A model generated the notes under the pieces. The model was not told where the DNA came from and did no database searches. It worked only from the letters and a program-made list of their open reading frames with translations. The translations under genes were made by a program, and so were the position numbers. Source: Chamaesiphon minutus PCC 6605 (GTDB taxonomy: Bacteria > Cyanobacteriota > Cyanobacteriia > Cyanobacteriales > Chamaesiphonaceae). Taken from it: 64,000 nucleotides of DNA. Positions within the stretch are counted from its first letter, which is position 1. The number at the start of each line of letters is the position of its first letter. The stretch is taken from contig NC_019697.1 of the NCBI RefSeq assembly GCF_000317145.1, positions 620,001 to 684,000 of the forward strand. Direction: 5' to 3'. Below are positions 21,661 through 52,849 of the stretch, piece after piece.

Positions 21661-21830
21661 CACTAACACTGGGGTAGAGCGGTTGCAAAAAATCAACCTC
21701 ACCCCAGATTTATCATTACTCAAAGATTTTCTGGATCGTTGGATGGAAAGGATGTTTAAGTAACCGATCGCGAGTAGTTATACTTTAAACGGTCATAATC
21801 TGAGCTTGCTAGAATCAGGAAAATCTAGGG

Positions 21831-21873
21831 TATCCCCTACCCTATTCCCTATTCCCTATTCCCTATCCCCTAT
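21831..21873. repeat. ATTCCCT heptamer tandem repeat
   Basis: Head-to-tail ATTCCCT/ATCCCCT units lie 16 bp before the HAD phosphatase start. This is the same class of short tandem repeat as at 12921 and 61592. Nothing else is seen in 21661-21888. Confidence 0.8.
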
Positions 21874-21888
21874 AATTGACCCGATCCT

Positions 21889-22539
21889 ATGTTCCAAAAT
21901 CACGATCTCATTCTCTTCGATCTGGACGGAACAATTAGCGACCCGTTAGAAGGTATTGGTCGATCGATTAACTACGCTCTAGAACATTTTGGCTATGAGC
22001 CACTCAAACTTTCTGAACTTGCTCAGTATGTTGGCCCACCACTTGATGAAACTTTCACTAAAATCACGGGCAATGAAGCAGAATCCAAACAGCTTGTGGC
22101 AAAATATCGCGAACGCTATCGAGATATCGGATATAGGGAAAACAAACTATATCCGGGGATGACTGAGGTACTGATCGAACTTCATCAGGCTAATGTGCCA
22201 ATAGGCTTATGTACCGCAAAACGTCAGGATTTTGCGGAGTTAATCCTCGATCTGTTTGGACTTACCCACTACTTTCAATTTATCAGTGGTGGAGAAATTG
22301 GCTTACCAAAATCCCAGCAAATAGAGTCTTTGTTATCGCAAGGACAAGTGAGTAAAGCTACACTTATGATTGGCGATCGCGCAGTTGACACGATCGCCGC
22401 GCACAAAAATGGTTTGCAAGCAGGTGGTGTTCTTTGGGGTTACGGTTCTCATGCGGAGCTTTTGAATGAGGCACCGCTATACTTATTTAAATCGCCAAGC
22501 GAATTAATTCAGATTGCTAGAACCTTTGGTAACCAGTAG
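21889..22539 (+). CDS. HAD-superfamily phosphatase, phosphoglycolate phosphatase-like
   Basis: The 216-residue protein has motif I LILFDLDGTISDPLEGI (nucleophile Asp), motif II in GLCTAKRQ, motif III Lys in GGEIGLPKSQ and motif IV LMIGDRAVDTIAAHKNGL. The cap domain (GRSINYALEHFGY, YVGPPLDETF) is of the Gph/PGP type (HAD-IA). The likely reaction is hydrolysis of 2-phosphoglycolate or a similar small phosphoester. In a cyanobacterium that would serve photorespiratory salvage, but specificity cannot be read. It stands alone. Confidence 0.9.
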   Translation: MFQNHDLILFDLDGTISDPLEGIGRSINYALEHFGYEPLKLSELAQYVGPPLDETFTKITGNEAESKQLVAKYRERYRDIGYRENKLYPGMTEVLIELHQANVPIGLCTAKRQDFAELILDLFGLTHYFQFISGGEIGLPKSQQIESLLSQGQVSKATLMIGDRAVDTIAAHKNGLQAGGVLWGYGSHAELLNEAPLYLFKSPSELIQIARTFGNQ

Positions 22540-22555
22540 GGTGGGCACTGTCCAC
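22536..22555. repeat. GTAGGGTGGGCACTG dispersed repeat, copy 2
   Basis: GTAGGGTGGGCACTGTCCAC begins within the TAG stop codon of the HAD phosphatase gene. It shares 15 bp with 13070-13084. The repeat arrived at or forms the very end of the coding region. Confidence 0.7.
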
Positions 22556-22770
22556 AGACCATTATTAAGTTAGTAATACAAATTTTTGGAGTGGTTACGA
22601 TCGATTGCCAATAGCACGCTTTGCGATTACCTACGGTACGTTACTCGATCGATTTGAATTTATTTAAGTGAGGGGTAAGTCAGATGACTCGATCTTTCGC
22701 TCCACTGCTCATTTGCTCATTATTTTGGTAGGATAATGTTATTACTATTAGTAATAACACAAACTCGATT

Positions 22771-23103
22771 ATGACTAATCCAACCTATCCACTCGCACCT
22801 GCTAAAATCGGTAATGCGTCTGGTTTCCGCTTACCAGCTAGTTTCTACCGCGATCATCCTCAGTTTGTGAATGCCACCGGATGGGTGGAGGTGTTGAGCG
22901 ATAATACTGTGCTAGTTAAGTTAGAACCACAGCCAGTCGAGCTAGATTCAGATTCAGACGATCTGATGCTGAGTCTATTTTTAGACTTAGTTACTAAAGA
23001 CGCGCTGACTAATCCCGAACATCTTGAAGCCTATACCGAGGAGATGGCGGATGAAGATGATGAACTCTTACGTTGTGAAAATATATCAGAGAGGGATAAA
23101 TAA
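22771..23103 (+). CDS. AbrB/MazE-like small protein, first gene of a translationally coupled pair
   Basis: The 110-residue protein has AKIGNASGFRLPASFYRDHP near the N-terminus, which resembles the swapped-hairpin MazE/AbrB DNA-binding fold. An acidic tail follows (SDSDDLM, EEMADEDDELL). Its TAA stop overlaps the ATG of the next gene (TAATG at 23101-23105). That arrangement is typical of antitoxin-first gene pairs, but the partner is broken here. The antitoxin role is inferred. Confidence 0.6.
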   Translation: MTNPTYPLAPAKIGNASGFRLPASFYRDHPQFVNATGWVEVLSDNTVLVKLEPQPVELDSDSDDLMLSLFLDLVTKDALTNPEHLEAYTEEMADEDDELLRCENISERDK

Positions 23104-23438
23104 TGGATCTAAATGAATTGCCAGGATCGGAGTTAATTCTACCAGGATTGGAAGATCTTTACGAAGGCAGAAATAATACGATCGGATCGCTATTAATCTC
23201 GTTGGCGTAGTCTCTCTGAAAGAGAATCGCATCCATCCGCTTAACCGCAGCGGGATTGGACATTCCGCAGGTGTCTCTAGCATCAGAGCCAGAACTGGCT
23301 TTGTATAATTATCTTCAGATCGATCGTCGTTAGACGACGCGCAAGCTTCGCGATGATGCTTATCCTTACTACAATGCTTTATTAAATAGCCTCAACAGTT
23401 TTTGTGCTGCACTTGAACTGAAATCTAAATATCAATGA
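23103..23438 (+). pseudogene. Second gene of the pair, disrupted by two small repeat insertions
   Basis: Reading from ATG 23103 gives MDLNELPGSELILPGLEDLY...GSLLISLA and then a stop. Coding-like sequence resumes as RLTAAGLDIPQVSLASEPEL and ALYNYLQIDRR, meets another stop, and resumes as DDAYPYYNALLNSLNSF, ending ALELKSKYQ. The first break is repeat-like sequence beginning CGTTGGCGTAG (23200-23210), a known dispersed repeat here. The second is about 24 bp (near 23329-23353). Removing both would restore one protein of about 95 residues. Family not recognised. Confidence 0.65.
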
Positions 23439-23490
23439 ATAGGAGTTTGGGCAAGTAAAATCAGTAGGGTATGCTTCGTGTAAGTTTGCT

Positions 23491-23511
23491 CGTGGGCAGT
23501 ACCCACCCTAC
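23491..23511. repeat. GTAGGGTGGG dispersed repeat, reverse copy
   Basis: CGTGGGCAGTACCCACCCTAC is a short hairpin whose right arm is the reverse complement of GTAGGGTGGG. It lies in the gap before the Z1 module. Confidence 0.65.
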
Positions 23512-23723
23512 ATTTTTACTACTAAAATGTCAGAATTGCTAATGGCGGCTTGATTTTGACTCTCGACCAGATCCTTATTTTCCGTATGGGATTGTCTGGG
23601 TGGAGGCTGATGAGTTCCGAATATACCTTTGCTCGAATGTGTAAATAGTCAAGTTTATTTCCTGATGGGTTGAACAAGTAAATGTAAATAGTTATTGAAG
23701 CTATAGCCAAACTAGACATCGTA

Positions 23724-24203
23724 ATGATTAGCGATCAAGAATTTCTCTACGGGGCTGCATTTTCTCGTTTAGTTCACTATGGAGGTCAAATTTCACTTAC
23801 TCATTTATCAGATGTACATCCAGCAATTTATCTAGTTGAAACAAATAGCAGTAAATCAGCTATTCTTTTCAAGCTATCGAAAAAGCCAAAATCTACATGG
23901 TCTTTTACATTGAGTCATCAGGAGCAGTTAGCAATAGCTACTGTATCTGAAAAATATTCACACACGAAAATATTTTTCTCGCTCATTTGTCATAAAGACG
24001 GCATTTGCTGTATCTCTAAGGAGCGACTTTACGATCTCTTAGATCCAAGTGAAGATATTAGCGCACAGCATATATCAGTATCTCGCAAAATACATGGTAG
24101 TTATCATGTCAGTGGGCCAGGTAGACAACAAATGAATCGGTCAATACCTCAGAATGACTGGCCTTATATAATTTTACAAAATGGAGATAATAGTCATGAG
24201 TAA
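23724..24203 (+). CDS. Unknown 159-residue partner protein of a Z1 ATPase
   Basis: The soluble protein has no signal peptide. Features are EFLYGAAFSRLVHYG at the start, a central IYLVETNSSKSAILFKLSKK with KSTWSFTLSHQEQ, then FFSLICHKDGICCISKERLY and a basic tail (SVSRKIHGSYHVSGPGR). The E-then-K beta pattern followed by PW/TW-F-F could be a nuclease-like core, but that is weak inference. Its end overlaps the Z1 gene by 8 bp, so the two are translationally coupled. Base composition is AT-rich with few HIP1 words, unlike neighbours, which suggests transfer. Confidence 0.75.
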   Translation: MISDQEFLYGAAFSRLVHYGGQISLTHLSDVHPAIYLVETNSSKSAILFKLSKKPKSTWSFTLSHQEQLAIATVSEKYSHTKIFFSLICHKDGICCISKERLYDLLDPSEDISAQHISVSRKIHGSYHVSGPGRQQMNRSIPQNDWPYIILQNGDNSHE

Positions 24204-26373
24204 ACTTCCTATTAAAACTGACGGATATTGCATCGATCACTTCACTAATACTATCAAAGCTAAAATTGGTGATTTAGAAGCAGAAAAGTTGAAAAATACT
24301 GCTTGCGAAATCGTTCAAAATTGTGTTGATATATACTTAAACACATTTGGAGATGATGATGTTGGTGCTAATGGTAAAGGTATCGTCACGAACCATTACA
24401 AAGGCAAAGGAATACCCGATGGCACTACTGGCTTAATCTATGGCAAAGTTCAAAGTGGTAAAACTAATATTACAGTCGCAACATTAGCACTAGCTGAAGC
24501 TAACAATTTTCGTTGTTTTATTGTTCTAACTTCCGACAATACATCACTTGGAAAGCAAACAGCCGAACGTTTTAAGAGTCAGCTTGATGGTGGCCCGATT
24601 GTCTGTCACTGGGAAGAGTGGAAAAGAGATCCAGTAGATTTCGCTCGCAGCAGAGTAATACCATATATTAAAGATGATGGAGTTGTTCTCATATCAACTA
24701 AGAATGTTCACCATCTAGATAATTTACTAACTGTTCTCAAAAATTCTGGAGCTAAAAATGTACCGACTATTATTTTTGATGATGAAGCTGATAATGCTAG
24801 TCTAAACACAAACGAAGCAAGGAAATCGAAACAAGGAAATCCAAATATTTCAGATAGTACTATTTTTGAAAAAATAGGTAGTATTCGGAAGGAGGTAATT
24901 AATCACATATATTTACAAATTACAGCAACGCCTCAAAGTTTACTATTACAAAATCTCGATCATCCCTGTAAACCAGCTTTTTGTGCTGCACTTCCACAAC
25001 CAGGAGATAGTTATATGGGCGGAGATTTATTCTTTGATGAGGAAAGCCCCTATTGCTCGATCGTTAGAGGTGAAGAGATAGAAGAACTTAAAACTCAAAA
25101 TGGTTATATTAATCCTGGGGATACATGGAATATTCCTAGTGGTCTAAAGCTAGCTTTGTGTTGCTTCTTTTTAGGTGCTGTCTATAAGATGGAATCCAAT
25201 CAAGATAATGATATGAAATATTCTTTTTTGGCACATATATGTCACAAAAAAGTTAATCATAGTAATTTGGGGAGAATTATTAGTGAATTTATTTTGCAAC
25301 TAGACAAAGCTTTAAGAGATAACTCGGAGACAATCAACAAGAAAGAAGCTAATAAATTATTAGAGCAAGCTTATAAAAAATTACAGAAAACATCGTCCGA
25401 TCTACCACCGTTAGAGAATTTGACAGAAAAATTAAGATACAAGTTAAGAAATGCAATTCCACAAGTCGTCAATGCTGACAATGTTAACAAAGAATTGAAA
25501 TACAATCCAGGAATGAATATCCTAATCGGAGGTAATCGACTCGCCCGTGGTGTTACTATTGAAGGTCTAATGGTAACTTACTATGGACGAGATGCTAGAC
25601 AAAAAACGATGGACACAGTTCATCAACATGCGCGGATGTTCGGCTATCGACAAGGATTAAAAGATGTTACTCGTTTATTCTTACCTCAAGAAATTTTGGA
25701 AGATTTTCGGGCAATACACGAAGCTGACGAAGGAATGCGTCAAGCTATTGGAGACGATCTTAGTCAAATAAAAATTCAGCCAGTTTGGATCGGTCGGCAA
25801 CTTCGGGCAACTCGATCTAATGTTTTAAATCCAGCCGCAATTGGTGTTTTAACCCCAGGATCAGCTATTTTTCCTCGCGATCCATTATGGAAAAATTCGG
25901 ATGTAGAACAACATACTGAAGCTTTAGATGAACTTCTATCTGAGTATGGAGGAGATGATATATATCATAATATTAATATCAAATTTTTATTAAAAGTTCT
26001 CACGCACATGCCAAGTCATTACTGTTCTGGATATCAGTGGGATGATACAAGAATTCAATCAGTATTGAAGGCTATGAATGCAGAAGGTGTCAATGAAGGA
26101 ATACTAAATGTTCGCCGTGGCAATAAAGGTGACGGATTAGAATTGAAAAACCAGGTAATAAGACCTTGGAAAGGTTCCGGCTATGCCTTTAGTAAATGGA
26201 TTAGTAAACCTAGAGAACTATATCCCGATTGTCCAATTCTTGTTGTCATGTATCAGAAGGGTGAAAAGATAAATGGCTGGGAATGCCCACTTTATTTACC
26301 CACACTGATTCTACCTAAAAGTAAGTTTGCTTTTATGTTTAACAATATGAATGAAGGGGAAGAATCAGAATAG
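24196..26373 (+). CDS. Z1-domain P-loop ATPase (putative nucleic-acid helicase/endonuclease)
   Basis: The protein has 725 residues from ATG 24196 (MSKLPIKTDG, ribosome site GGAG at 24183-24186). Walker A is GKVQSGKT (83-90), Walker B-like DDEADNAS 195-202, the SF2 motif III-like ITATPQ 242-247, GGNRLARGVTIEGL 445-458, and a motif VI-like HQHARMFGYR 476-485. This order is that of the Z1 family, found with helicase-type ATPases in restriction and other defence loci. No methyltransferase, Vsr, MutL-like or AIPR gene is beside it. Its only companion is the coupled 159-residue gene upstream. AT-rich and HIP1-poor, it is probably acquired. Function is not established. Confidence 0.9.
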   Translation: MSKLPIKTDGYCIDHFTNTIKAKIGDLEAEKLKNTACEIVQNCVDIYLNTFGDDDVGANGKGIVTNHYKGKGIPDGTTGLIYGKVQSGKTNITVATLALAEANNFRCFIVLTSDNTSLGKQTAERFKSQLDGGPIVCHWEEWKRDPVDFARSRVIPYIKDDGVVLISTKNVHHLDNLLTVLKNSGAKNVPTIIFDDEADNASLNTNEARKSKQGNPNISDSTIFEKIGSIRKEVINHIYLQITATPQSLLLQNLDHPCKPAFCAALPQPGDSYMGGDLFFDEESPYCSIVRGEEIEELKTQNGYINPGDTWNIPSGLKLALCCFFLGAVYKMESNQDNDMKYSFLAHICHKKVNHSNLGRIISEFILQLDKALRDNSETINKKEANKLLEQAYKKLQKTSSDLPPLENLTEKLRYKLRNAIPQVVNADNVNKELKYNPGMNILIGGNRLARGVTIEGLMVTYYGRDARQKTMDTVHQHARMFGYRQGLKDVTRLFLPQEILEDFRAIHEADEGMRQAIGDDLSQIKIQPVWIGRQLRATRSNVLNPAAIGVLTPGSAIFPRDPLWKNSDVEQHTEALDELLSEYGGDDIYHNINIKFLLKVLTHMPSHYCSGYQWDDTRIQSVLKAMNAEGVNEGILNVRRGNKGDGLELKNQVIRPWKGSGYAFSKWISKPRELYPDCPILVVMYQKGEKINGWECPLYLPTLILPKSKFAFMFNNMNEGEESE

Positions 26374-26506
26374 TAATCAAAAAGACTTCTATGATGGGCA
26401 AGTTATGGTATCAAATTCTGAATAGATAGAATACTATGACTTGCCCCTTGGATTACCAATGTGAGAATTTTCAAAACGATCCTACTTTTGATGACTTTCT
26501 AGTTTT

Positions 26507-26562
26507 GTAGGGTGGGATAAATTATTACTAGAGACGATTACCTCCGGTAGGCTACGCCAACG
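26507..26562. repeat. Two dispersed repeats downstream of the Z1 gene
   Basis: GTAGGGTGGG (26507-26516) is followed by GGCTACGCCAACG (26550-26562). Both belong to families seen elsewhere in this window. They mark the boundary between the AT-rich Z1 module and the Rieske oxygenase gene. Confidence 0.65.
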
Positions 26563-26607
26563 ATCTATTGGCTGGGTTACGCTTAGATGAGCAACACTGC
26601 TGTTTTA

Positions 26608-27609
26608 TTATTGCTCAGTTTCGCCATGCGCCTTTAATAGCTCCGCAATCTTTTTGCGGATCGTCAATCCGGGCTTATCGGTAAACATGTGCTGTTCGCG
26701 ATTGGGGGCGAGCGGTACATCACAGTCAGTAGATTCTAAGATGCGCTTATCCTCAAGGGTGACAGCGCGATCGAAAGCGATCGCATCAGCACTTGGGGTG
26801 TCCTGTTCTGTGTCGTTGCGGATGCAAAACTGAACCATTTGCGAAGTAAGATCGTCGATCGGTGTCATCGTATTGACGATGATATGTACCAATCCATTGG
26901 CATAGGCAATGCTTAATTTGATGGTGAAGGGCATAAACCACAGCATGTCCAACGTGCGATAAGTTTGAGCCGATTCCATTTTGAGGTTTTGCTGTTGGAG
27001 TTCGGGGTTGACTACTCCTAGAACGCCGTGGGCGCGCAGTCCTGATGGAGTTTCAGTAATCTCTAATCGATCGGGCGTGGGATGGTCTTCACTGCCAAAA
27101 GTTGTGGTATGCACGAAAGTCGGATGAGCTAAATCGAGTTCATTTTCCATCACCCGCAATCCCGCGCATTTCCAAGTTTCATAAAATTCCGGGATCAGGC
27201 GAAAGTCTGACTCAAATGCTTCAGCAATGTGGGGGATCTCGGCGATCGGCTCATCCAAGCAAACCCAAGCATAGCCGTATTTTTCGGTGCAGCGATAAGT
27301 TTCGATCCGCGCAGCCGCCGGAATGCCCACATCTTTTAGCTGGGGTACACAGACGCAGCGACCTGAACTATCGAATTGCCAACCGTGATAGGGGCAAGCG
27401 ATCGCCCCATTTACTACCTTCCCTAAAGATAATTGGGCAGAACGATGGCAGCAGCGATCTTTCGCCGCCGCAGGTTTTCCCTCAGCATCCAGCCACAGTA
27501 CGATTTTTTGCCCAAGCAGCGTAAATGGTTGGGGGCTTCCGAGCAAATCGGCTGTCGGAATCACGGGATACCAAAATTTACGAAATACAGGTTGCTTTGT
27601 AACTAGCAT
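26608..27609 (-). CDS. Rieske [2Fe-2S] oxygenase (VanA/PaO-like, ring-hydroxylating alpha type)
   Basis: The 333-residue protein has the Rieske cluster motif C-x-H (RCCHRSAQLS) and C-x2-H (CPYHGWQF). The mononuclear iron motif is NELDLAHPTFVH, with D and two H. The length fits vanillate demethylase or pheophorbide oxygenase-like single-component oxygenases, which take electrons from a ferredoxin or reductase encoded elsewhere. It starts at ATG 27609 with GGAGG 10 nt upstream. A GTATAC palindrome lies 83 bp upstream. A catabolic role controlled by the nearby GntR regulator is inferred. Substrate unknown. Confidence 0.88.
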   Translation of the reverse strand: MLVTKQPVFRKFWYPVIPTADLLGSPQPFTLLGQKIVLWLDAEGKPAAAKDRCCHRSAQLSLGKVVNGAIACPYHGWQFDSSGRCVCVPQLKDVGIPAAARIETYRCTEKYGYAWVCLDEPIAEIPHIAEAFESDFRLIPEFYETWKCAGLRVMENELDLAHPTFVHTTTFGSEDHPTPDRLEITETPSGLRAHGVLGVVNPELQQQNLKMESAQTYRTLDMLWFMPFTIKLSIAYANGLVHIIVNTMTPIDDLTSQMVQFCIRNDTEQDTPSADAIAFDRAVTLEDKRILESTDCDVPLAPNREQHMFTDKPGLTIRKKIAELLKAHGETEQ

Positions 27610-27691
27610 CAGGATAGATCCTCCAATTTAACTAGGTCGATCGCCTCAGCTAATTAGTTTATCGATCTATCGATAAATAGAAAGTATGTTC

Positions 27692-27704
27692 GTATACAGT
27701 ATAC
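27692..27704. promoter_or_regulatory. Perfect GTATAC-A-GTATAC palindrome in a divergent promoter
   Basis: The palindrome lies between the Rieske oxygenase (minus) and the monooxygenase-domain gene (plus). The same 13-bp palindrome, with a different centre base, is 24 bp before the ABC transporter gene at 32747, and a near copy is before the porin at 29434. It is likely the operator of the FCD-type GntR regulator encoded at 28541-29239. Confidence 0.65.
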
Positions 27705-27839
27705 TGACAACCCAAATTGCTAATCATAACCCCAGCGGCTAGAAATGGCTGTTTATGGTAAAAAGTCCGCATAACTATCCGAGGGTTTCATACATCAATT
27801 TAGCAACGCCAAATTATCAATTAATTTAATGTCCACTGT

Positions 27840-28505
27840 ATGCAAGCAGACCAAACATTTTATTCAAGTCTGGTAACAGAATATATCATCCCTAAAGGAA
27901 ACGATTTTGCCTTCAAGTCATGGCATACTCACCTAGTGAATCAGGCGAAATGTGCTCCTGGGTTTATTCGAGCAGATCTTACTCCACCGCTCAGGTGCCA
28001 AGATGCAGTGGTCAAGTGGTACTCAATTATCCACTTTGACTCACAAGTAAATTTAGATAACTGGGTCGGATCGATCGAACGTCAAAAACTAGTGGAATCA
28101 GGACAGGAAATTTTTCGGGCTTACCGATTTAAGTCCTTCACAAGTGGTTTAGAAGGCTGGTTTTCTCAGCAATGGGGTGGCTTAGAACGATCGAGTTTAG
28201 GCTCTTCGACTTGGAAGCAAATCCTGGCTGTGGTGCTTGGATTGTACCCAACTGTGATGTTGCAATCCAAGTTATTTTCGGCATTGGGTATTTTAAACTC
28301 TTTACCACCCGCAAGTAAAATGCTAGTTAATAACCTCATCACATCCTCAATTTTGAGTCTAGTGGTTATGCCATTTGTTTCTCATCAACTTAATTTTTGG
28401 TTACAACCAGAATATCTAATCTCAGCTAGAAAAAATGATGCGGTCGGTTTAATTGTTGTCTTAACTTTACTAGCAATTATGGCGATTTTATTCGAGCTAT
28501 TTTAG
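27840..28505 (+). CDS. Antibiotic-biosynthesis-monooxygenase (ABM) domain protein with C-terminal membrane segments
   Basis: The protein has 221 residues. Residues 1-105 fit the ABM ferredoxin-like fold (VTEYIIPKGNDFAFKSWHTHLVNQAKCAPGFIRADL, VVKWYSIIHFDS). The rest has three hydrophobic helices (ILAVVLGLYPTVML, LITSSILSLVVMPFV, GLIVVLTLLAIMAILF). This fusion is known for membrane-anchored ABM proteins of unknown substrate. It is divergent from the Rieske gene and shares the palindromic operator region. Confidence 0.82.
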   Translation: MQADQTFYSSLVTEYIIPKGNDFAFKSWHTHLVNQAKCAPGFIRADLTPPLRCQDAVVKWYSIIHFDSQVNLDNWVGSIERQKLVESGQEIFRAYRFKSFTSGLEGWFSQQWGGLERSSLGSSTWKQILAVVLGLYPTVMLQSKLFSALGILNSLPPASKMLVNNLITSSILSLVVMPFVSHQLNFWLQPEYLISARKNDAVGLIVVLTLLAIMAILFELF

Positions 28506-46533: not shown

Positions 46534-49380
46534 TTAGTATCGATGAATACTCGTCGCGATCGAGCTACCAATCCGATCGGGGTTGGCAATGTAAGTGTAG
46601 TTATTAAATAGATTGGGGTTAGATCGAGATGTAGGTGGGTTGGTGGTTGGGGTGATTGGTGGGGTTGGTGGGGTTGGTGGTTGAGGATTTTCGGTGGGAA
46701 TATCGACGGTGAGGTTGAGTTCTTGCGAGGGTTGGGATGTAGCAGTGATATTGAGATGACCAGGGGTCGCGGGTAAGTCGCTGATAGTAAGTTTGTATTT
46801 GCCTTGTTCTAAACCTTCGAGGTAATAAACGCCTGCATCGTTGGTAATCGAACTAATTTTCGTTCCATTTTTCATGGCAGTCGCTTCGACTCTACCACCG
46901 ATTACAGGCTTACCAGCTTTGTCTTGAACTACGCCTGTATAGACGTAGGCAGGTACTAACGGAACTGAAATCTTTGTGATATTGCCAGCGGCTACATCTA
47001 AGCGCACAGCATCGATCGAGCTGCGATAATTGACTGGATGTCCTGCCGGATCGATATCTACACGATAACTGTCTGGTGGTAATTTAATCATGGCGAAGCT
47101 ATCGGTTGCGCTGGCAATCCGCACGGATTTGAGTGATTTGCCATTGATTTTAAATAATAAAGGATCGTAGTAAGTGGCTTCCCCTGGATCTTGGCGACTG
47201 TTGCCATTTGTATCGTAAAAGGCGGTGAGTTCCACTTGTCCGAGTGCGCGTAACTCATCAATTGCCGTATTTGTGCCTTGAATTCCCGTACTAGTGAGTA
47301 GGGTAGTCGTCAGTTCGATCGCATAACTATCTCGTCCATTTTCAGATGCGCCGCGATAACTCCCACGCAAGCGCAAGCCAGGAATTACATTGAGGTCTAA
47401 GCCAGCCACTACCCCGCTACTCAAATTATTCAATCCGTAGCCGAGTTCGGATTGCCAGACGGAACGACCATCGGCAGTTTTGTCGATCGATCGATATCGC
47501 CAGACGAGGCTGGAAAAATAGGGGCTGCTAGTGGCGGTAGCTTGACTATTGGTTTGATAAGTAGCGACGATATCATTACCAGTATCGGAATTTCCGCCTA
47601 AGTTGTAGGCAAGTTGCGTGGTTGTGGCTGATTCATTGATTTGACTGCTCAGTTGCCACCGCTCTAGGCGTTGACTGGCACCGAGTTTGAGTCGCGCTTG
47701 GCTGTCGATCTCAGCATTGAGCGAGGTCGAGCTATTGCTCCCAGTCGCACTGTATTGTCCGCCGACACTCAAGCCGCGCTGACTATCAAAGTTACTAGTC
47801 GCCGTAAAAGTGGGACTGAGTTTCCAGTTGGCATTGGCGCGAGAGGAAAACTGGTCGGTATTGGCGGTGAGAAAGAAATCATTAGAAGGACGATAATCGA
47901 GCCGCCCCAAAATATCCCATTGTTTGCCCGTCGTGGCTGAAAAGGCAACCTGGAGCGGTGTATTATTCGGTTGCCAAAAGACCTCGGCTACACCTAATAC
48001 TTCGCGATCGAACGCCGTCCCCACACCGACTGTCAGCGTCTCATTCAAACCGCGCCGATAGAGTACGCCACCCTGAACTGCATCAAAATCACCAAAATTT
48101 CCCGCTGCAATCCGATTGCCACCTGCGGACACCACCAATGCCGATCCACCTGTCGGTAGTTGTCCTGGTGTAGTAATAAATTGGGCGGGACGAATTTCGG
48201 GATTGGCGGTAAGTAGACCATTGGGATAGATCAGTACGCGATAATCTTGCCCGAAGATACTGTCGATTCCATTACCGACGATAATATTGTCAAAGCGATA
48301 AATCCCCGAACTATCGACGAGGATCTCTTGGAGTGGGGTAATTTGCGAACCGCGTACCAACTGTACTAGCGTCCCTGGGACAGCTTGCCCGACGATCGAT
48401 CTAGCTACTCGCGAAGATTGTAAACGATCGTTGACGGAGAAATCCGCACCAAATAATTGCACTGATGGGGTAAAGCCCTCACGCCAAATACTCGTACCGC
48501 CCCAATAAGTACCAGTCGCGCTGCTCTGTCGCCGCCAGAAGGGGATCTGGGAACCGAAGACTAGATCCGATTGGGGGCGTTGGCGAATGATGACCCCATC
48601 GGTAATATTCCAATTTCCAGGTCGATCGAGTTGAGGTTGGTCTACCTTGATATACCAGTTGGCATCAAAGATGTTCCCAACGGCTTTTAATTCGCCTTGG
48701 GCGGTGCCACCAGAACTAGATTGGCCGGAAACGTTCGTGCGCTGCTGGATCGCCCCTAAGCCCCAACCGATCGGTCTAGCAACAGGTAAACCATCGACAA
48801 CGATCGGCTGTTCTACGATACTCGTACCACCATCTCGATCGATCGTCGGTACTAATAAATCGATAGCGTATTTATTGATATCGAATTTGGCGGTCAGCCC
48901 TGGAATCGCGTTCAAATCTCTAATCGCGATCGTTCGACCCAATTGTCGATCTTTACCGATTTTATCTGGTGATAGTAGATATTTAAAGATCGGCGAACTA
49001 ATTTCAATCTGTCCGGTTGGTAGCTCTTTGACCTTAAACTTTAATGCTTCGATAACTTCATCAAATGGTACCAACCACCCCTCAAAGTTAACCGCCTTTT
49101 CACCATCTTCTTTACCTACGACATTAATGCTGGGCAGGACATTTTTCCCGTTAATATTTAAACCGACAGGTAATGTTCGATCGCCTTCAGGAATGACGGC
49201 GGGTGTGATGGGTTTATTTTGAACGATCTCTTCTTTGGGTCGATCGGGTGTTGATTGGGCGGCGACGATCGGAGCTAGGAGGATAACTAGCTGACTGGCG
49301 AGAATGAGTGTTTGTGATAAAAATCGACAGTGTTTAAAAAAATGGTGAAATGACGATTCACCATTGCAAAATTCAGACAT
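46534..49380 (-). CDS. Usher-like outer-membrane protein of a divergent chaperone-usher pathway
   Basis: The 948-residue protein has a signal peptide (about 18-42). An N-terminal periplasmic domain (80-190) and a long beta-rich barrel follow. A plug-like segment has IVGQAVPGTLVQLVRGSQITPLQEILVDSSGIYRFDNI and DYRVLIYPNGL, the pattern seen in FimD/PapC ushers. The C-terminus carries TAFYDTNGNSRQDPGEATYYD (SdrD-B-like) and VYTGVVQDKAGKPVIGGRVEATA (carboxypeptidase-regulatory-like), then a Pro/Thr-rich stretch. It lies downstream of a chaperone and three subunit genes on the same strand, as expected of an archaic-type pilus operon. Usher function is inferred. Confidence 0.8.
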   Translation of the reverse strand: MSEFCNGESSFHHFFKHCRFLSQTLILASQLVILLAPIVAAQSTPDRPKEEIVQNKPITPAVIPEGDRTLPVGLNINGKNVLPSINVVGKEDGEKAVNFEGWLVPFDEVIEALKFKVKELPTGQIEISSPIFKYLLSPDKIGKDRQLGRTIAIRDLNAIPGLTAKFDINKYAIDLLVPTIDRDGGTSIVEQPIVVDGLPVARPIGWGLGAIQQRTNVSGQSSSGGTAQGELKAVGNIFDANWYIKVDQPQLDRPGNWNITDGVIIRQRPQSDLVFGSQIPFWRRQSSATGTYWGGTSIWREGFTPSVQLFGADFSVNDRLQSSRVARSIVGQAVPGTLVQLVRGSQITPLQEILVDSSGIYRFDNIIVGNGIDSIFGQDYRVLIYPNGLLTANPEIRPAQFITTPGQLPTGGSALVVSAGGNRIAAGNFGDFDAVQGGVLYRRGLNETLTVGVGTAFDREVLGVAEVFWQPNNTPLQVAFSATTGKQWDILGRLDYRPSNDFFLTANTDQFSSRANANWKLSPTFTATSNFDSQRGLSVGGQYSATGSNSSTSLNAEIDSQARLKLGASQRLERWQLSSQINESATTTQLAYNLGGNSDTGNDIVATYQTNSQATATSSPYFSSLVWRYRSIDKTADGRSVWQSELGYGLNNLSSGVVAGLDLNVIPGLRLRGSYRGASENGRDSYAIELTTTLLTSTGIQGTNTAIDELRALGQVELTAFYDTNGNSRQDPGEATYYDPLLFKINGKSLKSVRIASATDSFAMIKLPPDSYRVDIDPAGHPVNYRSSIDAVRLDVAAGNITKISVPLVPAYVYTGVVQDKAGKPVIGGRVEATAMKNGTKISSITNDAGVYYLEGLEQGKYKLTISDLPATPGHLNITATSQPSQELNLTVDIPTENPQPPTPPTPPITPTTNPPTSRSNPNLFNNYTYIANPDRIGSSIATSIHRY

Positions 49381-49464
49381 TATCTTAAAGTTGGCATTTG
49401 ATATTATCTAGCAGTATTTATTTGTTTCAAAATGATTGGACATTGGTGGGCTGCGTTTGGAGAT

Positions 49465-49623
49465 CTGAATCCCCCTAAATCCCCCTTGGGAAGGGGGACT
49501 TCCGGAGCGCATTTAGCCCCCCTTCCCAAGGGGGGTTGGGGGGATTCAGGGATTACGCGCTCACAAATTGTGTGTGGATGCTGGATTGATGGAATCCCCC
49601 TAAATCCCCCTTGGGAAAGGGGG
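49465..49623. repeat. CCCCCTAAATCCCCCTTGGG inverted/direct repeat cluster
   Basis: Three arms: 49465-49497 (CTGAATCCCCCTAAATCCCC...), its approximate reverse complement at 49517-49549, and a direct copy at 49591-49623. The first two form a long hairpin. This is a dispersed element type, and the open frame reading through it (49432-49698) is not a gene. Nothing else is seen in 49381-49852. Confidence 0.8.
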
Positions 49624-49852
49624 CTTTCGGAGAAAGCGTGTCAAGACAGGGGAAAAAGATGGCGCGAATACCTTAACAAAAACGGTATTAGTTATTAGTC
49701 CCAATATTAAAAATTATGATATCAGAATGAGAATATCCACCGATGCTGCCAAATGACTAAAAATCCGAGTCAGAGATCGATATTATTGCTTAAATTCACT
49801 CTATGTTCGAGTGAAGATCGAGAATAAACTAAATCGCCCATCGACTAGACAA

Positions 49853-50653
49853 CTATTTAGTAGGTACTGTCAAAGGTAGAGAGAAAGGCACTTTTTTTCC
49901 ATCACTGTTACTAATTTCACCTATCAAATCATAGTTTCCAGGTGCTAATTTAGTTTCTGTGGGCATTTTGAGATCGATTGCCCGTTCTCTACCTGCTTGT
50001 AAAACTATCCCCTGAATTTTATAACTAGTAACCTCTACATTGCCCTGTTTCAATGACCAGGCAACTTCTGGATATGCCGATGCTTGACCTTCATTCTTGA
50101 GTAACAATCGCGGCTTCTGGGTTTCAGAATTCCAGTTTACACTTGCCCCACTTAATTTAGCCGTACCACTACCTTTCGAGATAAAAAAGATCGAACCAAT
50201 TTGCGGTCTGATGATAGTAATGTATTTTGTTTTGGGATCGGTAACTTTCCGTTCGGTCAGATCTTGGGTAAATACTGATACTCGATATTCTCCATCCGGT
50301 TTACTCGGTGGAATCGTGATATTTATTCGCACATCTCTAGTTACTCCAGGTGCGACTACTACTTCTTTAGGCGAGAATTGGAGATAGGGATTGGCACTAT
50401 TCGGATGAGTCGCAATTCTCTTGAATCCAGTCTCTCGATCGTAATCAAAATCCTCTGCATAAATTCGCGCACGTAAGGGCGTATTCCCTGAATTAGTTAC
50501 AGAGAAACTTGCTCTAGCTTGGGCACCTTTAAGTTGGGCTATCGTTACTAATGGGGATACAGTAATTGATATAGATTGAGCGATCGCCTTAGCGGATAAA
50601 GCAAAAACAGTCAAACCACTAACGATCGATACGATCTTATATATTTTATTCAT
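49853..50653 (-). CDS. Periplasmic pilus-assembly chaperone (PapD-like)
   Basis: The 266-residue protein has a signal peptide (about 1-25, ...SAKAIAQS). A PapD-like Ig domain follows: QLKGAQARASFSVTNSGNTPLRARIYAEDFDYD, YLQFSPKEVVVAPGVTRDVRINITIPPSKPDGEYRVSVF. It belongs to the fimbrial/molecular chaperone family, which donates a beta strand to subunits and delivers them to the usher. The gene stands between the subunit genes and the usher-like gene. Confidence 0.85.
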   Translation of the reverse strand: MNKIYKIVSIVSGLTVFALSAKAIAQSISITVSPLVTIAQLKGAQARASFSVTNSGNTPLRARIYAEDFDYDRETGFKRIATHPNSANPYLQFSPKEVVVAPGVTRDVRINITIPPSKPDGEYRVSVFTQDLTERKVTDPKTKYITIIRPQIGSIFFISKGSGTAKLSGASVNWNSETQKPRLLLKNEGQASAYPEVAWSLKQGNVEVTSYKIQGIVLQAGRERAIDLKMPTETKLAPGNYDLIGEISNSDGKKVPFSLPLTVPTK

Positions 50654-50829
50654 ATATTGGAAATTATATTATTTTGATTTTATCTTATTGTAAATAATAT
50701 AGTAATTACTAAGTTATTCAAAAACCATTTACTTTTTAGCTGATTGTCAAACAAGCACAGTCAAAACCATTTCTGGTATTCTGACTGTGCTTGATAGAGC
50801 TAATTAATTAGCCATCGAATTGAGTTCGA

Positions 50830-51336
50830 TTAGGGAGTTAAAGTAGGAGTAACTACTACTGAGTAAGCACCTGCTTTTAATAATTTAGTGGCTGGCGCGT
50901 TGACTTCAGATGCAATAAAAGCATCATCTCCAGCAGCTTTGGTAACATCTCCAGCACTAACAGTAGCTGTAACAGGAGTTGTTGAGTTGTAAGCAGCTAA
51001 ACCTGCATAAATACCATTACCACCACTGGTGAATCCAACTTTAGTAGTTGTACCAGTTTGAATAGTACCAGTACCTGTAAATGTAACGGTTGGAGCTACC
51101 GTGATAAGATTGAGAGTACTAGTGTCTGAATTACAAATAACGTTGATTTGACCTGGTGTTATAGTAGAGATAGATGTAACGGCACCAGTCGCATTAGTCA
51201 GTGAGCCATCAATTACCTTGGTAAAAGTACAAGATGGAGCTACACTACCACCAAAGCTAACAGTCTGAGCTTGAGCGGAACCAGCGAAAGTAGAAAGTAC
51301 ACCAGCAACAGCCGCGATAGTTAGAAACTTTTTCAT
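50830..51336 (-). CDS. Secreted pilus-subunit-like protein 1 (SCPU-like)
   Basis: The 168-residue protein has a signal peptide (1-23, ...GSAQA). The mature part begins QTVSFGGSVAPSCTF, with a donor-strand-like N-terminus and the first of two Cys (second in INVICNSD). The C-terminus reads NAPATKLLKAGAYSVVVTPTLTP, the same ending as the two genes upstream. Size, two-Cys layout and end pattern fit spore-coat-U/archaic pilin subunits. An internal ATG-poor, Thr/Val-rich beta composition agrees. Confidence 0.78.
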   Translation of the reverse strand: MKKFLTIAAVAGVLSTFAGSAQAQTVSFGGSVAPSCTFTKVIDGSLTNATGAVTSISTITPGQINVICNSDTSTLNLITVAPTVTFTGTGTIQTGTTTKVGFTSGGNGIYAGLAAYNSTTPVTATVSAGDVTKAAGDDAFIASEVNAPATKLLKAGAYSVVVTPTLTP

Positions 51337-51413
51337 GATGAGACTATTTCCTGTATGGATAATGTGTGAAAAAATCTAGAGTTATGAATGCAGATTTAAC
51401 GACAGATCGATTA

Positions 51414-51929
51414 CTAAGGAACGATCGTGGCATCAACTACAACAAGGTAGTCATTAGCCGTTTTCAAGAGCTTTCCTAATGGCGCATCAACTCGCACCTG
51501 AATTCGACCAATATCACCACTAGCGTTAGTAACAGTAGGTAAACTAACTACGATCGGATTTATTGATGGAACTGTAGCAGGCAGATTGGCTGTGCCAAAT
51601 ACGCCACCACCACCATTAAATCTAATCTTGGCAGTACCGTTATAAACTTTAGTGCTGCCACTATTAATTGCTAGGGTAAGAACACCAGTCGCAGTGTTGC
51701 ATTTGACTTGAACGATACCTCGATCGCCACCAGTAGCCACCAACGCAATAGCGGGGAAATTGCTAAGTTCTTCACTTAGACTTCCATCAGTAACGCTATC
51801 GATCGTGCAAGAAGCAGCAACCGAACCAGAGAAGTTAACAGGAGTAGGCGCAGCTTGAGCCACGTTCCCGTAACAAATCGTTGTTAAACCCACAACAGCA
51901 GACAAAGTTAATAATTTTGCTGGACGCAT
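51414..51929 (-). CDS. Secreted pilus-subunit-like protein 2 (SCPU-like)
   Basis: The 171-residue protein has a signal peptide (about 1-27, ...NVAQAA), then PVNFSGSVAASCTIDSV, a second Cys in VQVKCNTATG, and the end DAPLGKLLKTANDYLVVVDATIVP. A clear paralogue of the 50830 and 52076 products, spaced 77 bp from the former. Likely one of several pilin types in the fibre. Confidence 0.78.
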   Translation of the reverse strand: MRPAKLLTLSAVVGLTTICYGNVAQAAPTPVNFSGSVAASCTIDSVTDGSLSEELSNFPAIALVATGGDRGIVQVKCNTATGVLTLAINSGSTKVYNGTAKIRFNGGGGVFGTANLPATVPSINPIVVSLPTVTNASGDIGRIQVRVDAPLGKLLKTANDYLVVVDATIVP

Positions 51930-52075
51930 ATATTTGTTGCTCTCGTTCGGGTGAAACTCCCCATCGACAAGCGATAAGAGTCATTTTGCAACCAAGCCTC
52001 ACAGCTATAGTCGCAGGAATTTTCGTAACTACGAGAGTTACTACTAGCACCGAACTAGATGGCAATGCCTGGGAA

Positions 52076-52555
52076 CTAGTTAAATACAGCAGTTAAGACC
52101 AACTTGTAGTCCCTTGCTGCCTTCAACAACTTGCCGCTCGGTGCCACGATCGCCACTCGGATGCTACCATTACCTGACTGAATGCCTTGGGAGCTAATCG
52201 GTACAGAAATCGTACTCGTCGCGGGATTGGTAGTCGCACCTGCTAGCACCCCAGACTGACTCACAAACTGCATCTTCGCCCCACCGTTGTAAACGACGGA
52301 TGGATTCAGCGTCAGTAGCAAATTGCCAGAAGCATTGCCCCGACAACTGACAGCGATCGAAGCTAAACCCCTCAAACCCGTTGCCGGATTGGAATTAGGT
52401 AATAGTTCCTCAGCGATGAACCGATCGATTTGACAGGTGTTGTCATTGCCATTTTGGGCGATTAACCCAAACTGTTCGGATCGAGCGATATTTTCTTGAC
52501 TCATCCACAACCAACTAGCAACAGCAACAAATTGGATAAATTGCGACCGATACAT
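52076..52555 (-). CDS. Secreted pilus-subunit-like protein 3 (SCPU-like)
   Basis: It has 159 residues if started at ATG 52555 (MYRSQFIQFVAVASWLW..., a signal-peptide-like start). The frame is open 24 codons further up, but that part is not signal-like. Cys pair in NDNTCQIDRF and IAVSCRGNASG. The end VAPSGKLLKAARDYKLVLTAVFN is shared with subunits 1 and 2. First gene of the pilus operon as read. It is more divergent at the N-terminus and could be an adaptor or tip subunit (inference). Confidence 0.7.
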   Translation of the reverse strand: MYRSQFIQFVAVASWLWMSQENIARSEQFGLIAQNGNDNTCQIDRFIAEELLPNSNPATGLRGLASIAVSCRGNASGNLLLTLNPSVVYNGGAKMQFVSQSGVLAGATTNPATSTISVPISSQGIQSGNGSIRVAIVAPSGKLLKAARDYKLVLTAVFN

Positions 52556-52849
52556 AGCTGAGTGTGGGCGATGAAGCCAGAAAGAAGTTTTGTAACAATG
52601 CAACAAACCTATAGAGTTGTTACTCAAGGTGAGTTATTGATACAATAGAAATTCAATGTTTTTGAGATCGTGTGTCAGCGAGAGAATTGGCAACCATCGG
52701 AGTGCGAGACCGCCCTTCGATCGAAACCGCTTTTGTCGATCGCTGCCTCACCTTTGCTCCAAACAGGCTGAATACCTCTTGTATAGCTAGGTTGGACTCA
52801 GATCGACAACTGACATCCAACATAATACTTCTACGATCGAGAAAATGTC

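Follow-up and report, generated by a model that had tools for sequence, protein, structure and literature searches.

Beside a Z1-type ATPase gene in the chromosome of Chamaesiphon minutus PCC 6605 stands one small gene, and the pair raises the question of whether a Z1 system can be built from two genes and, if so, what its small partner contributes. A first-pass annotation of the 64,000-nucleotide stretch of DNA analysed here (the window) had described the pair as a minimal, self-contained module in which the small protein, which it could not place, is the effector or the sensor.

A two-gene Z1 module in the C. minutus chromosome

Both reading frames, their overlap and the four motifs named for the ATPase lie where the first-pass annotation had put them, as judged from ORF coordinates and translations (Table 1). 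The two genes are likely to be translationally coupled through the 8-bp overlap, and an in-frame ATG further upstream of the Z1 gene, at 24181, would yield a protein of 730 aa. The Z1 identity of the ATPase (P0002) was borne out by profile search, and P0002 was the only Z1 match in the 6.76-Mb genome. No methyltransferase, Vsr, MutL-like or AIPR gene adjoins the module in the window, as the annotation had also reported.

Table 1 Features of the module and its surroundings, in window coordinates
Feature	Position	Strand	Description or basis
Small partner gene, 159 aa	23724..24203	+	Predicted PD-(D/E)XK fold, non-canonical active-site region; AlphaFold2 and structural match
KxSxK motif (K50, S52, K54) of small protein	23871..23885	+	Occupies the (D/E)xK place of PD-(D/E)XK enzymes
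Glu67 of small protein, helix after core sheet	23922..23924	+	Invariant in 16 relatives; Asn in G114
Overlap of both reading frames, 8 bp	24196..24203	+	ORF coordinates
Z1 ATPase gene (P0002), 725 aa	24196..26373	+	H-subunit-like DEAD-Z1 motor, CglI-type C-terminal domain; PF10593, PADLOC and 6f1s
Walker A GKVQSGKT, residues 83-90	24442..24465	+	Q86-S87-G88-K89-T90 invariant in Z1 alignment
Walker B DDEAD, residues 195-199	24778..24792	+	Invariant in Z1 alignment
ITATPQ motif, residues 242-247	24919..24936	+	TATP invariant in Z1 alignment
Z1 domain (Pfam PF10593)	25144..25821	+	Pfam E 9.8e-57
HQHARMFGYR motif, residues 476-485, within Z1 domain	25621-25650	+	
C-terminal domain, CglI H-subunit type	25849..26319	+	6f1s match, residues 552-708
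Interval with differing gene content in a flank-sharing genome of the same genus (G386 = L079)	21661..27849	.	

The pair had also been called AT-rich and poor in HIP1 words, and the composition agrees: GC is 36.1% compared to 44.4% for the window, in which no other 2650-bp stretch is as low, GC3 is about 0.25 compared to 0.35-0.53 in 15 other genes, and CGATCG occurs once, against a mean of 12.5 per 2650 bp. The lack of any GCGATCGC in the module means little by itself, because only about 0.7 copies are expected per 2.65 kb. At 14 loci of other cyanobacteria, CGATCG is likewise scarce in the module, and GC is usually below that of the flanks. The dispersed repeats noted behind the pair could be traced as well, since the repeat at about 26534-26565, 3′ of the module, recurs many times in the genome; this short repeat and another at 21831-21873 have dozens of copies across the genome and its sister genomes.

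Two further observations concern the surroundings. The antitoxin-like gene just upstream of the module (22771-23103) is an orphan, its YhaV toxin gene missing here; in two genomes of the same genus (L081, L082), DNA 94-95% identical to it is followed by an intact YhaV gene (PF11663). By eye, the translations of the region 46534-52627 of the window suggest a large usher-like protein, a chaperone like PapD and three small, pilin-like secreted proteins; these may form a cyanobacterial chaperone-usher pilus cluster.

The small gene and the Z1 gene recur together

The small protein was present in 8 of 386 cyanobacterial genomes, and all eight carry a Z1 relative, which answers the concern that the small gene might mostly occur without Z1. 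A wide scan of 84,980 species' genomes with a pattern for the small gene retrieved 17 loci, every one of them cyanobacterial; the small gene lies directly 5′ of Z1 in 16 of these, the 17th being a 63-residue fragment. The two frames at the scan loci overlap by 8 or 20 bp or are separated by a gap of up to about 31 bp, with the 8-bp overlap also found in L054, L056, L061, L062 and the Nostoc C057 plasmid and the 20-bp overlap in L050/L051. In a Prochlorococcus-like genome (G114), a small protein with 29-34% identity adjoins a diverged Z1 gene in divergent orientation, with 37 bp between them. Since this pair is divergent yet adjacent, a single operon structure is not what keeps the small gene with Z1.

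To delimit the module, shared genes were compared at 20 cyanobacterial loci, taking all genes within about 8 kb on each side. Z1 occurs at every one of the 20 loci, and gene calling recovered the small gene at 19; at the remaining locus (L038) a copy is present that overlaps a longer Z1 frame. The next most common family, which includes an integrase-family gene, reached 5 loci. The small gene and Z1 are the sole two genes common to these loci, as a minimal module would have it, and with a third gene in no more than 5 of 20 loci the pair does not look like a fragment of a multi-gene Z1 system. This two-gene form recurs across many genera and families.

Distribution outside cyanobacteria was assessed by the pattern scan of the 84,980 species' genomes and by a plasmid search. 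Viral contigs, queried with both proteins or with alignments, yielded no relatives, nor did phage records, in which one chance match (E 3) was obtained. The phage/prophage family PHROG 28860 is homologous to residues 2-148 of the small protein (E 2e-12), and, given this family, Z1-free relatives of the small protein may exist outside cyanobacteria. A full-text search of the open-licence literature on Z1 systems found no description of the two-gene form.

The ATPase is a CglI-type motor

The PADLOC Helicase_II profile covers almost the full length of P0002 (residues 76-713, E 5.6e-89), and the match to MzaC is partial, with a score of 86.7 bits against an equivalog cut-off of 1500. A model of the full Z1 protein was poor (pLDDT 57.5) and weak outside the C-terminal domain, so the better parts were used alone. 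The C-terminal domain (residues 552-708) matched 6f1s, the C-terminal domain of the CglI H subunit, with Z 13.6, rmsd 2.6 over 137 residues and 19% identity; type I and type ISP restriction motors were the next structural matches to P0002, whose DEAD part resembles those translocases. Far from being an isolated oddity, the ATPase is related over its full length to the H (N) subunit of CglI/NgoAVII, and it has a clade of its own.

The module can be compared directly with CglI, NgoAVII and BceSIV, which consist of M, R (PLD-B3) and H or N (DEAD-Z1-CTD) subunits. Its motor is homologous to theirs over the whole length, with the same three domains, a DEAD-Z1 ATPase followed by a CglI-type C-terminal domain, and in the module as in those systems the partner gene lies directly upstream with frames that overlap or nearly touch. 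The plasmid search returned full-length P0002 relatives in M-PLD-Z1 operons of Mucilaginibacter, Psychrobacter and Latilactobacillus and in a gonococcal NgoAVII-like locus, and there too the nuclease gene precedes Z1 with overlapping or nearly touching frames. (Two gonococcal records filed as plasmids, NZ_CP119142.1 and NZ_CP119140.1, of 2.17 Mb, look like chromosomes.) Unlike CglI and NgoAVII, which have an adjacent 5mC methyltransferase, the module has none beside it nor among the genes common to the 20 loci. In the tree, moreover, small-partnered Z1 proteins form a clade (100/100) apart from the PLD-partnered clade (99/97) and from DUF4420-partnered Z1; the Z1 of G114 was too diverged for placement. 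The CglI and NgoAVII motors hydrolyse ATP in a dsDNA-dependent manner and are themselves required for cleavage, and translocation has been proposed for CglI (PMC4267653, PMC5737866).

Two other kinds of Z1 locus resemble the module in part. The MZA and DUF4420 (PF14390) operons encode Z1 together with a MutL/MORC-type ATPase, Vsr, a methyltransferase and a restriction-endonuclease-fold protein (PMC2292703). They share with the module the pairing of a Z1 helicase with a protein of this fold, but their other genes are absent from it and its Z1 scores below the MzaC cut-off. DUF4420 partners are about 300 aa long and keep D and ExK, in a catalytic pattern E-D-ExK (PMC2292703), whereas the module's partner has 159 aa and lacks these residues; a shortened DUF4420 was rejected as its origin, with a probability of 0.1% by profile comparison and no PF14390 match. 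Closer to home, two cyanobacterial loci (G251 = L040, G008 = L041) are also two-gene loci, with Z1 proteins 31-35% identical to that of the module, but the partner is a C5 cytosine methyltransferase (PF00145) and no small restriction-endonuclease-fold gene is adjacent. These methyltransferase and Z1 genes (L040 7219-10688, L041 7713-11172) have no nuclease gene adjacent.

The partner has a predicted restriction-endonuclease fold

An AlphaFold2 model of the small protein, made with 16 relatives (pLDDT 82.6, pTM 0.81), was placed in the restriction-endonuclease fold by Foldseek and VIA-align. The best match was Hjc of A. fulgidus (Z 11.0, rmsd 2.8 over 121 residues), followed by I-Ssp6803I (Z 9.7), RecU (9.0) and SPARDA (8.7), with EcoRV and PvuII lower; viral structural matches were Hjc, RecU and PD-(D/E)XK proteins. 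The predicted core fold is thus that of the PD-(D/E)XK superfamily, shared with several unrelated nucleases, at about 8-13% identity to Hjc/RecU, I-Ssp6803I and the SPARDA nuclease domain. By sequence, the small protein has no Pfam match and no match in a search of solved structures, and PHROGs alone among the profile libraries searched matches it. A B3 or PLD domain, as in the CglI R subunit with its PLD (HxK) nuclease and B3 parts, is ruled out by the predicted fold; the profiles hit by a true R protein are RE_NgoFVII and RE_NgoFVII_C. The model places the protein that the first-pass annotation could not place, and it corrects the claim that PD-(D/E)XK genes are absent. The small gene is tied to Z1, but with this predicted fold its product is not a wholly unknown effector or sensor.

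The catalytic signature that goes with this fold is not there. Judged from sequence and secondary structure, D ... (D/E)xK is absent from the core strands in all 17 relatives, and the catalytic D and ExK of Hjc/RecU, I-Ssp6803I and SPARDA are missing from the small protein. The strands expected to bear these residues hold Ser/Ala and an invariant K50-x-S52-x-K54, and this KxSxK is found in 16/16 relatives as well as in the distant G114 protein. Acidic residues conserved in 80% or more of the proteins lie outside the catalytic places, at positions 4, 6, 39, 41, 67, 68, 92, 107 and 145, and include E6 in the first helix (alpha-1) and E67 in the helix after the sheet. In nucleases of the Cfr10I/NgoMIV kind the Glu has moved to the helix, and S-x-K with a Glu 12 residues on is reminiscent of that arrangement, with the partner Asp not conserved. 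Because the canonical acids are missing, cleavage by the small protein is uncertain.

One possible reading, to which we give only tentative credence, makes the small protein a DNA-binding loader or sensor that is dead as a nuclease, and has invaders stopped by the motor alone, through protein stripping, replication block or DNA condensing, or by a host nuclease. The core strands without a conserved D or (D/E)xK are what this predicts, and in a crude probe, Glu substituted at position 48, 49 or 50 lowered the score against PHROG 28860, which suggests that this family too is without ExK there. Against it, the invariance or near-invariance of S52, K54, E67 and the alpha-1 residue E6 goes beyond the needs of a scaffold, and the CglI-type motors described so far partner with a nuclease (PMC4267653).

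The fold matches could also point to a metal-independent RNase or a structure-specific nuclease, akin to the splicing endonuclease or Holliday-junction enzymes, that acts by abortive infection or by cutting branched replication DNA. The fold is matched best by Hjc and the tRNA splicing endonuclease, and H32, Y36 and K50/K54 do not vary within the main clade of small proteins. We consider this unlikely, however: a common fold is no proof of function, the EndA match spans only 87-93 residues, and H32 and Y36 are not kept in the distant G114 relative, where Tyr and Phe/Ile-like residues replace them.

Transfer, selection and exchange of parts

The two-gene system at this locus has moved horizontally. 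The module was absent from 8/8 other genomes of the genus that were searched, and one of these, G386, retains the outer flanks (genes for an AIG2-like and a 113-aa protein on the left and a 221-aa protein on the right), which there enclose an entirely different set of genes. Copies of the module sit on mobilizable plasmids in Nostoc sp. C057 and Calothrix brevissima. Neighbours elsewhere include, on one plasmid, an SNF2 helicase scoring as DrmD with an integrase nearby and, on another, a helicase scoring as PbeA/type IV restriction together with an integrase, VapC and a NACHT protein; other copies have an Abi_alpha protein, a PLD-helicase or a PemK toxin as neighbour, and at many loci the neighbours are ordinary.

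The Hjc/RecU-like fold, and the chromosomal position of the module in several genomes, would suit a cyanobacterial accessory factor for DNA repair or recombination with no part in defence. Such a role is quite improbable for a module with so patchy a distribution (8/386 genomes), carried on mobilizable plasmids, low in GC and missing from sister genomes. The family of the motor, the neighbours, the mobility of the module and its decay suggest instead a role in defence.

Intact copies of both genes are under purifying selection, with dN/dS mostly 0.06-0.33 in both. Decayed copies, with frameshifts, truncations or internal deletions, are frequent (L061-L063, L065, L066, G385, G376, G030), as would be expected if the module were a degenerate CglI-type or DUF4420-type system that had lost its methyltransferase and nuclease and was kept by chance. 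This is very unlikely indeed, and largely refuted, because copies with the same two genes turn up across many genera and families, purifying selection acts on the intact genes, the Z1 clade is separate from PLD- and DUF4420-partnered Z1, and the partner is not recognisable as a DUF4420 fragment.

Two altered forms of Z1 were also seen. In L065 (8001-9200) and in L045 with L044 (G376), Z1 residues 1 to about 130-153 are joined to residue 686 onward, so that the whole ATPase core is gone, with the small gene intact in L065; these could be decay or a reduced form. The Z1 proteins of L060 and L065 end in an additional tail, ...NPxFDFLxxPEEDIYTLADGKPF.D, behind which lies one more small gene (PemK-like in L060), and look as if fused to an antitoxin.

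Divergence is uneven along the module. Between L053 and L054, pS stays at 0.04-0.06 across the small gene and the first 95 residues of Z1 and is 0.47-0.73 beyond, and between L050 and L051 it is 0.09-0.10 at both module ends and 0.38-0.69 in the motor. Within Z1, variation is greatest in the C-terminal domain, where mean identity is 53-63% compared to 71-93% in most other parts. The uneven synonymous divergence indicates three exchanged blocks, namely the small gene with the Z1 N-terminus, the motor, and the C-terminal domain; blocks with different recombination histories were noted within the module in L050-L059 and L088. As the gene pair recombines in blocks, the pairing of its subunits is not rigid, and block exchange would fit a system pressed to change its target or to escape inhibitors.

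A model for a proposed two-protein complex

We propose, with about even confidence, that the module encodes a methyltransferase-free, CglI-like motor complex that acts on foreign DNA, with the small protein as its DNA-engaging and perhaps nuclease subunit. The small protein would replace the CglI R subunit, as its gene lies directly upstream in overlapping or near-touching frames and its product has the predicted restriction-endonuclease fold. In CglI, binding of the R subunit is reportedly assigned, in a 2018 paper on the H subunit, to the Z1 and C-terminal domains. In the module, the small protein would touch Z1 at its first 95 residues, at its C-terminal domain or at both. Docked on the motor, the small subunit would engage foreign DNA, ATP hydrolysis would move the complex along it, and stalling or collision would set off an attack. 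This attack could be made by the small subunit, through a non-canonical site formed by S52-x-K54 and the helix Glu67, or could be a mechanical disruption by the motor. A cut by the small subunit is slightly favoured over motor action alone or an attack on RNA or branched DNA.

Since there is no methyltransferase, self recognition must rely on another cue, and host DNA might be spared through its modification, ends, branches or active replication state. Type IV restriction likewise has no cognate methyltransferase, and the cue could be read by a type IV-like, modification-dependent action or by detecting DNA ends or branches; it is also conceivable that a methyltransferase acts in trans. In its most specific form, the model would have a pseudo-nuclease or alternative-site subunit of the restriction-endonuclease fold steer a CglI-type translocase by a non-methylation cue, giving a two-gene Z1 defence with neither methyltransferase nor canonical nuclease, and this we regard as a possibility short of probable.

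Conclusions

To our knowledge, all CglI-motor systems described so far come with a self-marking methyltransferase and a nuclease of recognisable site. The C. minutus module is a CglI-type motor with a novel minimal partner; the motor class is known, and its two-gene form was not found in the open-licence literature. A conserved two-gene form that has neither of those components would be the smallest working version of the CglI motor class, and it raises the direct question of how host DNA is spared, which is testable because less than 3 kb of DNA has to be moved into a laboratory host. Specificity, or escape from inhibitors, may lie in the C-terminal domain of the motor, the part that varies and is exchanged.
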